From Bacteroidales bacterium (GTDB taxonomy: Bacteria > Bacteroidota > Bacteroidia > Bacteroidales > UBA932), in NCBI GenBank assembly GCA_017465225.1, contig JAFTWQ010000012.1, positions 1 through 37,335 of the forward strand: a DNA stretch of 37,335 bases, in the 5' to 3' direction. A program made the translations under genes and the position numbers. Below are positions 3,068-12,009 of this stretch, piece after piece (positions within the stretch are counted from its first letter, which is position 1; every line of letters starts with the position of its first letter). The notes under the pieces are model-generated. The model saw only the letters and a program-made list of their open reading frames with translations, was not told the DNA's origin and did not search any database.

Positions 3068-3970
3068 ATGGAACTGATATATAGAAATGACCACCAAGAA
3101 CGCTCTGGCGATGCAGAGGGTTTGCATCGGTATATCTGTGAGTCTACTAAGCCTGTAGAGGTTCCTTATGTATATCATTATACCTCGCTTGATGCATTGT
3201 TCAATGGTATGTTGCTTGAGCAACCTGTCAATGGTATGCAGATATGCTTGTGGGCTTCCAGTGTTTTATGTGTAAATGACACTCAAGAAGTCAGAATAGC
3301 TTTTGATTTTGTCAGAGATCATATCGTCAAAATCGAAGACGCAAATGATGATGTGAGTATGATGACAGAAATGTTAGCGGATTATTATGTAACATCCTTT
3401 TCTTTGTTGCGTGATTCTTTGCTCATGTGGCATAGATACGCCAAGAATGCCACGGGGATTTCCATTTGCTTCGATGTAAATGTCTTAAGGCAATCAGCAA
3501 AAGACAGTTTAATGAAATGTGTTTATCTGACACCGGAGGTGTTAGATAAGATAAGGTCTTATATAAAAGATTCTAAGCCTGTCAGCTGTACATTCGGGCA
3601 GTTCGCGTTGGTTTGTTTTGTGCTTTTATTTGGTTTGAGTAAATCAAAGGATAGAGACAAAGTCGTTGGTCGGATTTCTGCATTTTTGGATTTTCTGATG
3701 TCTTTAAAGAATAGGGATTATATTGACGAAAATGAGGTCAGATTATTTGTCGTAGAACAAAATACTAATGCGAAATCGAGAGTACGAGAGCAGAAGGATA
3801 TTATGGAATATGTGGAACGATTCTTCCCGAAAGAAGCAGTTGTAGAAATAATGGTGGGGCCTAATAATCTCGATAAAGAGAAAACTGCATTATTTATCAA
3901 GCGATATTTAGATCGTATAGGTATGAGTCATGTAAAAGTGACGACTTCCGGAGTCCATTATAGAGGATAA
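3068..3970 (+). CDS. DUF2971 family protein
   Basis: The 300-residue protein shows the DUF2971 pattern in order: VYHYTSLDALF near residue 35, a CVNDTQE motif near 70 (the family's LND.E position), a serine-rich FSLLRDSLLMWHRYAKN segment near 110-128, then GISICFD. The C-terminal third carries an acidic NEVRLFV segment. The biochemical function of the family is not established; members are often found in accessory and defence regions. The gene is AT-rich, like its left neighbours, and is separated from them by a terminator. It is followed by three hairpins and a tRNA gene. I see no clear promoter in the 60 bases ahead of the ATG. Confidence 0.85.
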   Translation: MELIYRNDHQERSGDAEGLHRYICESTKPVEVPYVYHYTSLDALFNGMLLEQPVNGMQICLWASSVLCVNDTQEVRIAFDFVRDHIVKIEDANDDVSMMTEMLADYYVTSFSLLRDSLLMWHRYAKNATGISICFDVNVLRQSAKDSLMKCVYLTPEVLDKIRSYIKDSKPVSCTFGQFALVCFVLLFGLSKSKDRDKVVGRISAFLDFLMSLKNRDYIDENEVRLFVVEQNTNAKSRVREQKDIMEYVERFFPKEAVVEIMVGPNNLDKEKTALFIKRYLDRIGMSHVKVTTSGVHYRG

Positions 3971-8380: not shown

Positions 8381-9136
8381 TTATTTCAGTGTGAGTTCTA
8401 CCGGGCAGTGGTCCGAGCCGAAGATTTCAGTATGGATCTTTGCGCCCTCGAGCCTGTCTCGCAGGTTTTCGCTGGTCACGAAATAATCGATACGCCACCC
8501 CGCATTCTTCTGGCGGGCCTGGAATCTGTATGACCACCATGAGTATATGTCGGTCTGGTCCGGGTAGAAATAGCGGAAGGTGTCGATGAATCCTGCGTCC
8601 AGAAGGTTTGTGAACTGTGCACGCTCCTGGTCGGTGAATCCCGCGTTCATGCGGTTTGTCTTAGGATTCTTCAGGTCGATCTCCTTATGGGCCACATTCA
8701 GGTCGCCGCATACGATGACGCCTTTCTTCTCTGCCAGTCCGCAAAGATATGCTCTGAAATCATCCTCCCATGTCATCCTGTAGTCGAGTCTCTTCAGGCC
8801 GTCCTGCGAGTTCGGCACATACACGCACACAAGATAGAAGTCCTCCATCTCGAGGGTGATCACGCGGCCCTCATGGTCATGCACATCCACTCCGATGCCG
8901 TATGTCACGCTCAAAGGCTCATGCTTTGTGTATATCGCTGTTCCCGAATATCCCTTTTTATCAGCATAGTTCCAGTATGACCTATAGCCCAGGAACTCCA
9001 GGTCGATCTGTCCCTCCTGCAGCTTGGTCTCCTGCAGACAGAAGAAATCCGCATCCAGATCTTCGAAAATATCCGCGAATCCCTTCCCGCACACAGCCCT
9101 CAGGCCGTTCACATTCCATGAAATGAATTTATACAT
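8381..9136 (-). CDS. xth: exodeoxyribonuclease III (AP endonuclease)
   Basis: This is a Mg-dependent enzyme of the exonuclease III/APE1 family that cuts at abasic sites and removes 3' blocks during base-excision repair. Motifs in order: [11 protein letters not shown] at the start, LQETKLQ (metal-binding Glu), YSGTAIYTK, then [15 protein letters not shown] (active-site Asp/Asn), GWRIDYF and the terminal GSDHCPVEL with the catalytic Asp-His. The start is the ATG at 9134-9136, directly before YKFISWN; a longer frame adding 13 residues does not fit the family. Length is 251 residues. It stands alone on its strand. Confidence 0.95.
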
Positions 9137-9445
9137 AAATTGGTGTTTTTCTGATTGGTAAGGTGCCTCCTGCACCGCGCTTTCCGCTAATATAACGCTT
9201 TTCTCTCAATTCTTACTAGGACCTAGTGCAAAAAACTACAGAAAACGCTCGCGGTGCCCCGAAATACAAGGGTACCGCGAGCATTTTTACTATAAAACTG
9301 CGCTAGGTCATGCCTCCTAATATCATTAAAATAAATTTTAGCATCATTCAAAAAGATTACATCATTATAAAAAAGAGAAAAATGTGAAGAATCTTTTTTA
9401 TGATTTGCCTTTACTTCCGGGAAACCGGTATATCTTGCACAAAAA
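9137..9445. other. 309-base intergenic stretch carrying repeat copy 1
   Basis: Besides the 90-bp repeat at 9220-9309, this stretch holds an AT-rich segment (9310-9416) with no visible gene and a small CCGG-GAAA-CCGG tetraloop hairpin at 9417-9428 just before the RAYT start. A TTTG at 9404-9407 with TATATC 21 bases later could be a weak RAYT promoter. No tRNA or small RNA gene is recognised. Confidence 0.5.
9220..9309 (+). repeat. 90-bp palindromic repeat, copy 1 (upstream of RAYT)
   Basis: It is bounded by near-perfect 11-base inverted ends, GACCTAGTGCA and TGCGCTAGGTC. Inside is a 13-bp hairpin GCTCGCGGTGCCC/GGGTACCGCGAGC with one G-U pair, followed by ATTTTTAC. It is 87/90 identical to copy 2 at 10303-10392, in the same orientation, and ends 136 bases before the RAYT start codon. 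Confidence 0.95.
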
Positions 9446-10303
9446 ATGAAAGGTTATTATCACATAAGCAGTCACGGACTGGAGAAGAATGACATTTTTA
9501 AGAAAAAGGAAGATTTTGTTGCTGGAATGAATGACATTGCTATCTGTGTCCTGGGTTTTGACGTAATCATTTTGTGCTTCTGCCTCATGAGCAATCATTT
9601 TCATTTTGTGCTTTATGGCACCTTGTCAGAGTGCCGGAGGTTCTCTGAGGAATATAAAAGGAGATGTGCGATGAGGATGAAACTTGCCGGAGGAGAAGTG
9701 CAGGGAATGCGTGGTGTGGAAGTTCAGATTGCGCTTGTTGACAGCCAGGAGTATCTGGAAAATGTTATAGCCTATGTTCTGCGTAATCCTCTTGCGGCCG
9801 GTATCCTGTTGTTGCCATATCATTATCCATGGTCGTCGGCCGCATTGTATTTTAACGGTGGGATTCAGCAGGCAGGGGAGAGCCTGAATGAAATGAGTGA
9901 GAGAAAGCGTTTCAGGATATTGAAATCCCGTGTACCGGTGCCCGACAGTTATCTTGTAGATGGACAAGGAATGATTCTGCCTTCGTGCTATGTTGACTCA
10001 AAGGCTGTGGAACAGGTCTTCCGTCATCCTTCAAGGTTCATGATGTCTCTTGCAAGGAAGGTCGAGAATGATGTCGAGATTCATTTAGGTGTTGCAGGCC
10101 AGGTCTCTATGACGGATCAGGAGATTCTGACTCAGCTGGGTGACTTGATAAGAAATGAATTCCGGAAGGAATCCTTATCCGAACTTTCCATGGAGCAGCG
10201 TATCAGACTTTGTCTGCTCATGAAAAGAAATTTCAGAGCAGGAATCAAGCAGATAGCAAGGATTACCCGCCTTGACCCTGAAACTGTAGCAAAGGTGGTT
10301 TAG
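9446..10303 (+). CDS. REP-associated tyrosine transposase (RAYT, Y1/HUH type)
   Basis: This 285-residue protein is a Y1 HUH single-strand DNA transposase of the RAYT group, related to IS200/IS605 TnpA but normally non-autonomous and linked to REP palindromes. Seen: YYHISSHGLEKNDIF at the start, the HUH motif LMSNHFHFVLYG with His51 and His53, the tyrosine helix ENVIAYVLRNPLAAG (candidate nucleophile Tyr110), and YPWSSAALYF, a motif typical of RAYTs. The C-terminal ~60 residues look like a helical DNA-binding extension ending IARITRLDPETVAKVV. The gene lies between two 90-bp palindromic repeats in direct orientation, and the last base of its TAG stop is the first base of copy 2. The association with hairpin repeats supports a RAYT over a plain IS200. 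Confidence 0.88.
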   Translation: MKGYYHISSHGLEKNDIFKKKEDFVAGMNDIAICVLGFDVIILCFCLMSNHFHFVLYGTLSECRRFSEEYKRRCAMRMKLAGGEVQGMRGVEVQIALVDSQEYLENVIAYVLRNPLAAGILLLPYHYPWSSAALYFNGGIQQAGESLNEMSERKRFRILKSRVPVPDSYLVDGQGMILPSCYVDSKAVEQVFRHPSRFMMSLARKVENDVEIHLGVAGQVSMTDQEILTQLGDLIRNEFRKESLSELSMEQRIRLCLLMKRNFRAGIKQIARITRLDPETVAKVV

Positions 10304-10392
10304 ACCTAGTGCAAAAACCTACAGAAAACGCTCGCGGTACCCCGAAAAACAAGGGTACCGCGAGCATTTTTACTATAAAACTGCGCTAGGTC
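10303..10392 (+). repeat. 90-bp palindromic repeat, copy 2 (downstream of RAYT)
   Basis: It has the same length and orientation as copy 1, with only three substitutions. The central hairpin is perfect here: GCTCGCGGTACCC pairs with GGGTACCGCGAGC over 13 bp around a 10-base A-rich loop. The ends GACCTAGTGCA and TGCGCTAGGTC form the terminal inverted repeat. It lies between the convergent RAYT and cysS genes and, with T runs on both strands, probably also serves as their terminator. Confidence 0.95.
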
Positions 10393-10401
10393 TCTAAGGA
10401 T

Positions 10402-11943
10402 TTACTCCAATGTCCACTCTGTGCCGTCCTTGGTGTCCTTGATCTGGATGCCAAGGGCCTTGAGGTCGTCACGGATACGGTCGCTGGTAGCCCAGTCCTT
10501 TGCCGCTTTTGCTGCCTTTCTCTGCTCGAGGACCATCTGCACGAGTCCGTCGATGGTCTTGACTGCCTTTCCGCCTTCCGAAGCCTCGTCGTCGCGAAGT
10601 CCGAGGACTCCGAATACGATGTTGTCAAAGAGGTCCACAAGTGCCTTGTAGTCAGATGCATCGAGAGTCATCTTCTTGTCCTTGGCAGTGTTGATGATGC
10701 GTACTGCGTCGAAGATGTGCGAAAGTGCGATAGGGGTGTTGAGGTCGTCGCAGAGTGCCTCGTAGACGCTTTCCACCAACGAACGGACCTCTGCATTAGA
10801 AGCTGCAACAGAGTCAGGAGCGACAGCTGAAACGAACTCTCCGTAAGCGAGAGCCGGAGCTGCCTGGACGCCTGCCGCTGCTGCCAGGGCGCGGAGGTCC
10901 TTTGCGGCCTGCATGATCCTCTTCAGACCCTTCTCGGCTGCCTGCAGGGCCTCGTTGCTGAAGTCGAGGGTTCCGCGATAGTGAGCCTGAAGAATGAAGA
11001 AACGCACTGTCATAGGAGTATATGCCTGCTCGAGCTTCGGATGCTTGCCGGCAAAGAGCTCCGGCAGCGTGATGAAGTTGCCCAGCGACTTGCCCATCTT
11101 CTTGCCCTCGATGGTGATCATGTTGTTGTGCATCCAGTACTTCACGCCTGATGTGCCGCGCGAAGCTGTGTTCTGCGCGATCTCGCACTCATGGTGAGGG
11201 AAGAGAAGGTCCATTCCGCCTCCATGAACGTCGAACTCCTTGCCGAGATACTTCTCGCTCATTGCCGAGCACTCGAGGTGCCAGCCTGGGAATCCGTCGC
11301 TCCAAGGTGACGGCCAGCGCATGATGTGCTCCGGCGACGCCTTCTTCCAGAGGGCGAAGTCGTATGAAGCACGCTTGTCCTGCTGTCCGTCGAGGTCGCG
11401 TGTGCCTTCCTTCACTTCGTCCAGTGTGCGTCCGGACAACACGCCGTATTTATGGTCTGCATCATATTTCAGAACATCGAAATAGATCGATCCATTGCTC
11501 TCATATGCATATCCTGCCTCGAGAATCTTCTTCACGAGGTCGATCTGCTCGATGATGTGACCCGAAGCGCGAGGCTCGATCGAAGGGGGAGCAACGTTGA
11601 GCATCCTCATGGCTTCGTGATATGCGAGTGTACATCTCTGCACCACCTCCATCGGCTCCAGCTGCTCGAGGCGTGCCTTCTTTGCAATCTTGTCCTCTCC
11701 CTCGTCAGCGTCATGCTCGAGATGTCCCACATCGGTGATGTTACGGACATAGCGCACCTTGTATCCGAGGTGCTTCAGGAGCTTGACGAACACATCGTAT
11801 GTCACGCCCGGTCTTGCATGGCCGAGGTGAGCATCGCCGTAGACTGTCGGGCCGCAGACATAAAGTCCCACATGACCCTCGTTGATCGGCTTGAAAATCT
11901 CTTTCTTTCTCGAAAGGGAATTTGTTATATAAAGTTCTCTCAT
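10402..11943 (-). CDS. cysS: cysteinyl-tRNA synthetase
   Basis: This class I aminoacyl-tRNA synthetase charges tRNA-Cys in the cytoplasm. It shows the zinc/active-site Cys in [18 protein letters not shown], containing the HIGH box as HLGH, then [38 protein letters not shown] and the KMSKS loop as KMGKSLGN. The C-terminal helical tRNA-binding domain and small terminal extension are complete. I start it at the ATG at 11941-11943 ([11 protein letters not shown]); 513 residues. Upstream in-frame codons exist, but the -7 box at 11967-11974 would place the transcript start near 11960. The stop lies 10 bases from repeat copy 2. Confidence 0.96.
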
Positions 11944-11966
11944 AATCATGATTTTGTCACAATCTG

Positions 11967-11974
11967 CAAATATA
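11967..11974 (-). promoter_or_regulatory. -7 box of cysS
   Basis: On the minus strand TATATTTG followed by C, an exact TAnnTTTG match, lies 24 bases upstream of the chosen cysS start. No clear -33 TTTG is present at the usual distance. Confidence 0.5.
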
Positions 11975-12009
11975 GCAAAAATATGGCTATATCCGGCTTT
12001 CACCCGGAC

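Follow-up and report, generated by a model that had tools for sequence, protein, structure and literature searches.

A RAYT-Like Protein between Direct 90-bp Hairpin Repeats and the Sharing of Its Gene Segment across Species of Uncultured Bacteroidales

Introduction

By Nunvar's definition, the palindrome of a REP has a 5' GT[AG]G head at its foot (PMC3686654, PMC2817692, in the parts that treat the definition). Known RAYTs use this head together with a WQ motif (relevant parts of PMC6006769 and PMC8266576); the WQ motif belongs to the guide-binding region and is listed for the REP-linked subclasses in the portion of PMC6006769 used here. Known RAYTs nick their hairpins as single-stranded DNA, according to the corresponding part of PMC8266576. 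A REPIN, as described in sections of PMC8049555, is a hairpin unit that is not autonomous and owes its duplication to a RAYT. The same sections call RAYTs "single-copy" and "vertically inherited," give their exact function as unknown, and report no evidence of significant transfer of REPINs at the species level. Horizontal transfer has been called likely for isolated pseudomonad RAYTs (PMC3686654, in the passage concerned).

Here we describe a repeat-flanked RAYT-like gene on a 37,335-nucleotide contig (JAFTWQ010000012.1 of assembly GCA_017465225.1; this whole stretch is called the window) of an uncultured Bacteroidales bacterium whose genome assembly amounts to 2.35 Mb in 90 contigs and is 78% complete. 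It was compared with 200 genomes of the same genus, the window's own included (numbered G000 and up). The relatives are titled Bacteroidales, many of them from ruminant gut, and the genomes are MAGs, some of them broken at the repeat palindromes.

Results

Two Nested Palindromes around the Gene

The RAYT-like gene (9446–10303, + strand) lies between two copies of a 90-bp nested palindrome, REP1 at 9220–9309 on the xth side and REP2 at 10303–10392 on the cysS side. Both copies are on the + strand, that is, direct rather than inverted, and they are identical at 87 of 90 positions (direct-repeat match E 1.85e-39, which is not chance); a sequence-only reading of the window had described this pair, and it was right to the base. 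The 11-base inverted ends that it named are present in both copies (GACCTAGTGCA / TGCGCTAGGTC, or GACCTAGYGCA), and the final base of the RAYT stop codon (10301–10303) is also the first base of REP2, as it had claimed. The three mismatches fall at element positions 16 (spacer), 37 (inner stem, a G-U versus an A-U pair) and 46 (loop), which agrees with its count of two differences outside the stem and one pairing-preserving change within it. Both copies fold into an 11-bp outer stem, two A/T-rich spacers, an inner stem of ~18 bp, and a 10-nt loop. The central 13-bp hairpin of that reading is thus part of the fold and too short as a measure of its extent, the inner stem being 13 bp plus an A/T extension of 4–5 pairs.

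That reading had also held the structure to be conserved, and homologues bear this out. We aligned 18, removed two copies from G007 because they were aligned out of register, and kept 16. Two-sided changes are seen in 17 of 29 pairs (48 cells), a level reached in 0 of 500 shuffles, and the outer stem covaries too (8/11 pairs). Across 462 alignment cells, 90.3% pair, and sliding the partners by 1–3 columns lowers this to 29%–46%. Given the covariation and the loss of signal on sliding, we regard the nested fold as real. The GT[AG]G head is absent from both feet of both window copies. Rfam has no RNA family at E ≤ 1 for positions 9000–10600, a phage search gave no match, and a plasmid search gave two weak partial matches, to Skermanella.

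The RAYT-Like Protein

The 285-aa protein has an HUH motif (NHFH, with H51 and H53) and a candidate catalytic Y110 in YVLRNP; H51, H53, Y110 and N114 are invariant in 30/30 and 27/27 aligned RAYTs. It scores 24.3 bits against NCBIfam REP_Tyr_transpos (NF047646; cut-off 80), a model matched at E ≤ 0.01 by 29 of the 30 aligned members, the window's among them; Pfam Y1_Tnp matches 13 of the 30, and the window's is not one of these. The best hit of a PDB profile search is weak (chain 2xm3, "transposase," E 0.45); we take 2xm3 to be an IS200-type enzyme. The WQ motif is absent from the window RAYT, since no W occurs between H53 and Y110. The long C-terminal extension ends in a stretch that looks helix-turn-helix-like by eye and is matched by no model. 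In pairs with the window RAYT, dN/dS is 0.05–0.16 (computable in 4 of 9), pointing to purifying selection.

RAYT-like proteins occur in 166 of the 200 genomes, often several in each. The window's genome has one copy of this RAYT, and its next paralogue is 26% identical. That genome has six further RAYT-like matches, all divergent (24%–35%), on contigs C18, C80 (two places), C25, C81 and C85; the match at C80:55107 is interrupted by a TGA. Direct repeats of at least 40 nt, palindromic or not, stand within 600 nt on both sides of 12 of 28 RAYT loci of the genus versus 0 of 28 cysS loci (p 1e-4; 30 loci were fetched per set, of which 28 had enough flank). Some distant RAYTs of the genus (L020, L021, L028, L029, L032, L035) have longer direct repeats, of 121–258 nt, and are perhaps related systems.

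Linkage of Repeat and RAYT

Sixteen loci of a collection whose RAYTs reach 56% identity or more (L113–L128, some from the same genomes as the G set) were searched with a repeat model built from the 16-homologue alignment. A repeat is found on at least one side of the RAYT in 16/16 (weakest in L120, E 0.006); in 12 of the 15 loci where this could be tested, it begins no more than 8 nt from the RAYT stop, and an upstream repeat is present in 13 of 16. Fourteen more distant RAYT loci gave one marginal match.

At the genome level, DNA matches at E ≤ 0.01 are confined to 6 of the 200 genomes, and the model finds matches in 42. Among the 42 are all 11 genomes whose RAYT match reaches 50% or more and is either full-length or truncated at the end of a contig, versus 31 of the 189 others (Fisher p 1.1e-8). 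G068, which has no repeat match, is counted among the 189 because its 50% RAYT match spans 139 aa only. Nine of the counted genomes had contributed to model training (seven of the 11, plus G186 and G187); the four RAYT genomes outside the training set (G007, G026, G129, G138) are all repeat-positive. The sequence-only reading was right to tie the 90-mer to this RAYT. Diverged family members are also present in those 31 of 189 genomes without a close RAYT.

RAYTs with repeats of the same architecture are found at three different loci, and G123 and G026 hold two each. The locus-2 RAYTs group with the locus-1 RAYT of G123 (89/89); as to movement from locus 1 to locus 2, a single locus-1 RAYT clade is not rejected (p-AU 0.347).

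A Probable Insertion at cysS/xth

In the window, the repeat-bounded segment is flanked by xth (exodeoxyribonuclease III, 8381–9136, − strand) and, convergent with the RAYT, by cysS (cysteine–tRNA ligase, − strand; a mechanical ORF at 10402–12003, likely start near 11943); both lie outside the exchanged segment described below. We examined 20 of 30 fetched cysS loci. Two have the full order cysS-repeat-RAYT-repeat-xth, the window and G066, with the RAYT in the same orientation beside cysS; one has a solo repeat between cysS and xth (G186); four have a RAYT downstream of cysS (G026, G032, G183, and G138 in part); in three, no more than a repeat, the remnant of a RAYT, or the end of a contig is visible (G123, G169, G024); and four show neither repeat nor RAYT (G007, G039, G136, G120). 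The remaining six are empty sites: cysS runs directly into xth, which lies within ~60 nt, with no repeat or RAYT (G129, G187, G021, G056, G112, G012). The compact arrangement, which G112 and G012 share although they are more distant, speaks for an insertion of the cassette; the cysS tree, being too star-like, gives no date for it.

Exchange between Species

The RAYTs of the window and L115 are 97.2% identical, compared with 80.1% for xth and 85.0% for cysS. The spacer upstream of the RAYT (9310–9445, + strand) belongs to the exchanged segment, since its positions 9328–9445 are 98.3% identical to L115. In sliding windows, identity is 96%–99% just past REP1 and <91% at REP2. A patch of 92%–95% over the xth start and the spacer before REP1 is about equally similar to L113, where nothing was exchanged. 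Synonymous divergence follows the same pattern, dS between the window and L115 being 0.087 for the RAYT, 1.05 for cysS and 1.34 for xth. The cysS tree rejects a window + L115 grouping (p-AU 0.0041) and places L115 with G123 (96/97); the RAYT tree joins window and L115 (100/99).

Two other comparisons also have a low RAYT dS. For L113–L114 the values are 0.050 (RAYT), 0.31 (cysS) and 0.63 (xth). For G024, whose contig ends within the RAYT so that the left edge alone is visible, RAYT and xth give 0.22 (83 codons) versus 1.18 against the window and 0.28 versus 1.47 against L115. In the remaining 6 of 10 pairs, which are the closest found rather than a random sample, RAYT dS is 0.92–1.24, as high as in the flanks. 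Judged from these alignments, the repeat-bounded segment has passed from one species to another, and the window–L115 pair is the only one in which both of its edges lie at repeats. Clean repeat edges were considered for L113–L114 and rejected: the alike tract extends through the 80 nt of spacer outside REP1 and, at the other end, into the start of cysS. A RAYT swap between G066 and G026 was likewise dropped, as the RAYT tree keeps the two together, weakly.

In L114 and L115, an ORF of 371 and 379 aa, respectively, stands between the upstream repeat and the RAYT, and its TAG stop ends on the last base of the repeat. HSDR_N matches the L114 protein weakly (E 2.1e-5; 24.9 bits against a cut-off of 25.1), and the PADLOC candidate PDC-S57 matches it at 4.5e-8; these hits tentatively suggest a restriction-nuclease-like product. 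In L114, a 23-bp fragment from the right end of a repeat remains on the RAYT side. Between L114 and L115, dS is 0.168 for the cargo and 1.02, 1.12 and 1.40 for RAYT, cysS and xth; by their dS values, RAYT and cargo were each shared more recently than the flanks, and not together. Cargo homologues occur in four of the 200 genomes: G169 has the same arrangement, G032 keeps, at the corresponding position, a remnant interrupted by two stops, and in G127 and G049 no repeat-model match lies alongside. The G049 homologue (C256, L207) is distant (25%–27%) and lies ~0.8 kb from cysS, on its other side. In G123, a WYL gene and a weak GIY-YIG match (below cut-off) stand between the RAYT and the repeat on the cysS side. 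No such cargo is seen in L113, G024, G066, L117, L122 or L123.

In 54 of 55 pairs (11 loci), within-locus similarity of the repeats exceeds their similarity across species, a comparison in which only 17 pairs are >70% alike and some margins among these are 0–2 points; unlike pairs within a locus are found in G066 (73%), G183 (62%) and L113 (82%). Window and L115 have the hairpin core in opposite orientations, and their 3' copies rise from 86% to 96% identity once the core is flipped; the same holds for the L113 3' and L114 5' copies (90% to 97%). A three-gene block (LptG-like, tgt, nucleoside-permease-like) is inverted between the two species of L126 (4859–8710) and L127 (4862–8736), with both ends at inverted repeats. 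As far as alignments can tell, core flips, repeat-pair similarity and block inversion would fit hairpin processing and plain recombination between palindromes alike.

Copies Away from the RAYT

In the window's own genome, the DNA search returned only REP1 and REP2 at meaningful E-values. Four other places have E of at least 0.18, and one of these is the opposite strand of copy 2; beside one weak DNA match, on contig C71, lies a diverged element of the same architecture. The further copies in the same genome, whose absence the sequence-only reading had named as a refutation, are therefore lacking at close identity, near-identical copies in high number were not found there (two close copies in 2.35 Mb), and, without a third close copy, dispersal is not visible in that genome. 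In relatives, the number of strand-wise repeat matches per genome reaches at least 21, and solitary copies stand elsewhere in sister genomes. The idea of a distinct palindromic unit tied to the RAYT thus stands. A unit mobilised by a RAYT matches the description of REPINs (in the sections of PMC8049555 cited above), so that the idea is less new than first claimed.

From 162 strand-wise matches in 69 sources (among the matches listed, together with the L113–L128 loci), we hand-picked 83 places in 65 sources, dropping second strands and redundant loci; several places are orthologous, so counts over them are not independent. Among the matches listed, 40 of the 83 places lie within 15 nt of a gene stop (versus 206 of 1,631 random intergenic placements in the same loci), two lie near a gene start, 23 lie between convergent genes, and 12 are inside an ORF of at least 100 aa. 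A target rule "TA before GACC" was rejected: among the same listed matches, the end base of the element is exactly the last base of a stop at 10 of 83 places, partly orthologous copies. In the flanks, G/A prevails ahead of the element and T/C behind it, a pattern that would lengthen the palindrome; we do not claim it as a target site. GT[AG]G is found at the element start at 0 of 83 places and just before the core at 4 (L143 twice, L164, L124), again among the matches listed. A phosphofructokinase-like gene is present in 12 of 17 genomes asked and has a repeat downstream in two of the 12 (G183, G186); two of the 12 have <160 nt of downstream sequence.

Seven copies in G138 (L175–L181) have flanks that, by eye, are alike beyond the 90-bp core, on the right in six and on the left in five, making the unit longer there. 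In G123 (C43; L145, 2770–5058), a repeat at 3513–3602 falls within a 762-aa ORF at about residues 248–278, between AroD-like (2–239) and AroA-like (280–667) matches, as if it lay in a fusion linker. In L143 (4165–8096; G032, C5), two direct ~130-nt copies (96%) surround 3.7 kb of sequence in which a KilA-N gene (PADLOC PDC-S22, E 6e-130) is accompanied by a TPR gene; the end of the right-hand neighbour gene seems to be contained in the left copy, and GTAG stands just before the core in both copies. An apparent duplication of the unit in G032, at two places with identical repeat pairs, turned out to be a single 12-kb stretch that the assembly contains twice (100% identical).

Discussion

We propose, with a probability of roughly 0.64, that this is a RAYT/REP-type system of uncultured Bacteroidales in which the RAYT would process the 90-bp hairpins and the flanking copies also serve as borders of an interspecies swap. 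The RAYT would recognise the long hairpin in single-stranded form, probably on the lagging-strand template, and nick it there; for the window protein, both cleavage and the choice of strand are inferred. It would then copy or move the 90-bp unit, copies of which often stand at the 3' ends of genes in sister genomes. The two RAYT-side copies would act as borders of the RAYT segment, which, with or without nuclease-like cargo, has been exchanged among species while the cysS/xth site stayed fixed. Recombination or strand transfer in or close to the repeats would account for the exchange, and it may be RAYT-driven or plain homologous recombination. Our confidence is tempered by the presence of only two close copies, the lack of GT[AG]G and WQ, the overlap between training and counted genomes, the repeat-free G068, the diverged repeats in genomes without a close RAYT, the L113–L114 tract that runs past the repeats, and the 6 of 10 pairs with flank-like RAYT dS. 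Interspecies exchange of a repeat-bounded segment, its cargo, the empty sites and the inversion of hairpin cores had not been foreseen in the sequence-only reading.

The strongest competitor, which we put somewhat short of even odds, is that the RAYT segment came to be shared through ordinary homologous exchange at a hotspot, with the repeats as homology arms at most and the RAYT uninvolved. Repeats of 90 nt that are similar between species could serve as such arms, the L126/L127 inversion ends at inverted repeats on both sides, and the alike tract of L113–L114 passes the repeats; homologous recombination alone could yield both exchange and inversion. It leaves the purifying selection on the RAYT unexplained, however, and it is compatible with a RAYT-dependent spread of the solitary copies. 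A bolder idea, which we consider doubtful, is an anchored mobile cassette in which the segment between the hairpins (the RAYT plus variable, sometimes defence-like cargo) is replaced across species at one site, flipping cores and without hopping. An IS200/IS605-like insertion sequence transposing as one REP-RAYT-REP block would account for the empty sites and for RAYTs with repeats at three loci, two each in G123 and G026; it seems quite unlikely, given one RAYT copy in the window genome with a next paralogue at 26%, the lack of another ORF as large as TnpB between the copies, and a nesting of locus 2 in locus 1 that is not significant.

Two further explanations make the RAYT incidental. The 90-mers could serve mainly to terminate transcription from both sides between convergent genes, and could have spread through ordinary duplication. 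The window repeats have a G+C-rich stem with A and T tracts on both sides, and the siting of the family, close to stops, rarely at starts and frequently between convergent genes (orthologues included), is as expected of terminators. A terminator scan flagged no repeat, with the limit that it allows loops of 3–8 only; the 11-bp outer stem would be superfluous, yet it covaries, and 13 of the 16 close-RAYT loci have a repeat upstream of the gene as well. As a replacement for the RAYT system this seems unlikely, and a terminator role may hold in addition. Alternatively, the repeats could be MITEs or target sites of another transposase, with the RAYT merely lying between two of them. Their terminal inverted repeats and small size fit this, as do the family members in genomes without a close RAYT and the mere two close copies in the window's genome. 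We give this very little credence: the same architecture recurs beside RAYTs at three loci, the only other ORFs of at least 60 aa between the window copies are two antisense ones of 68 and 113 aa, and no target-site duplication is apparent by eye in the element flanks.

In these Bacteroidales, largely from ruminant gut, a RAYT segment has crossed species, which contrasts with the vertical inheritance described in the cited part of PMC8049555. Were the anchored cassette true, RAYTs here would be gene-exchange enzymes and not vertically kept domesticated transposases. The benefit of a RAYT to its host becomes testable anew, in the form of whether it promotes exchange at its hairpins, and one locus offers a natural series of empty site, solo repeat, repeat-RAYT-repeat and repeat-cargo-RAYT-repeat. 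Judging by the sequences, this type of RAYT apparently works without a GT[AG]G guide.

Comparison with Known Systems

A search of open full text (whole-word matching that could miss "Bacteroidales," and no subscription papers or preprints) turned up no other description of such a system. IS200/IS605 elements differ in having many near-identical copies per genome, as against the single copy here. TIRYTs and their TIRtrons (Di Nocera 2013, PMC3733652, as far as the parts used go; subclass 2.1) resemble the window in a RAYT-like protein with a C-terminal HTH-like part (here by eye) and in long flanking repeats that are not GTAG-REPs; their TIRs are inverted around the gene, many with GGGGWSAS, whereas the window repeats are direct and each a full palindrome. 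Subclass 2.6 of TnpA_Y1, compared by description from part of Quentin 2018 (PMC6006769), shares Bacteroidetes hosts, HUH class 2 membership and atypical flanking structures without GT[AG]G; it differs in a median length of 179 aa, WQ, and YIH[QN]NP, against 285 aa, no WQ, and YVLRNP here.

The closest likeness is to RAYT/TnpA_REP (TnpA_Y1 class 2) and its REP, REPIN and BIME elements. Shared features of the protein are the two-His HUH, the single Tyr in Y---NP, a palindrome-flanked gene, and copies elsewhere in sister genomes; the window protein departs from them in its 285 aa with a long C-terminal extension and no WQ guide motif, and the genus in having several paralogues per genome and a RAYT segment shared across species. 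The repeats, like REPs, REPINs and BIMEs, are palindromic, mostly outside ORFs, often near gene stops, RAYT-linked, and nested inverted pairs overall; the half-element hairpins looked for as a test of REPIN structure are clear by eye in the G183 and G000:C71 copies and weak in the window. They differ in being 90 nt rather than 20–40, in lacking a 5' GT[AG]G in the window, in RAYT-side copies that are direct and not inverted, in low copy number, and in having the core in both orientations. Our verdict is that the window holds a RAYT/REP system of a variant kind, with 90-nt repeats, direct flanking copies, no GT[AG]G head and no WQ.
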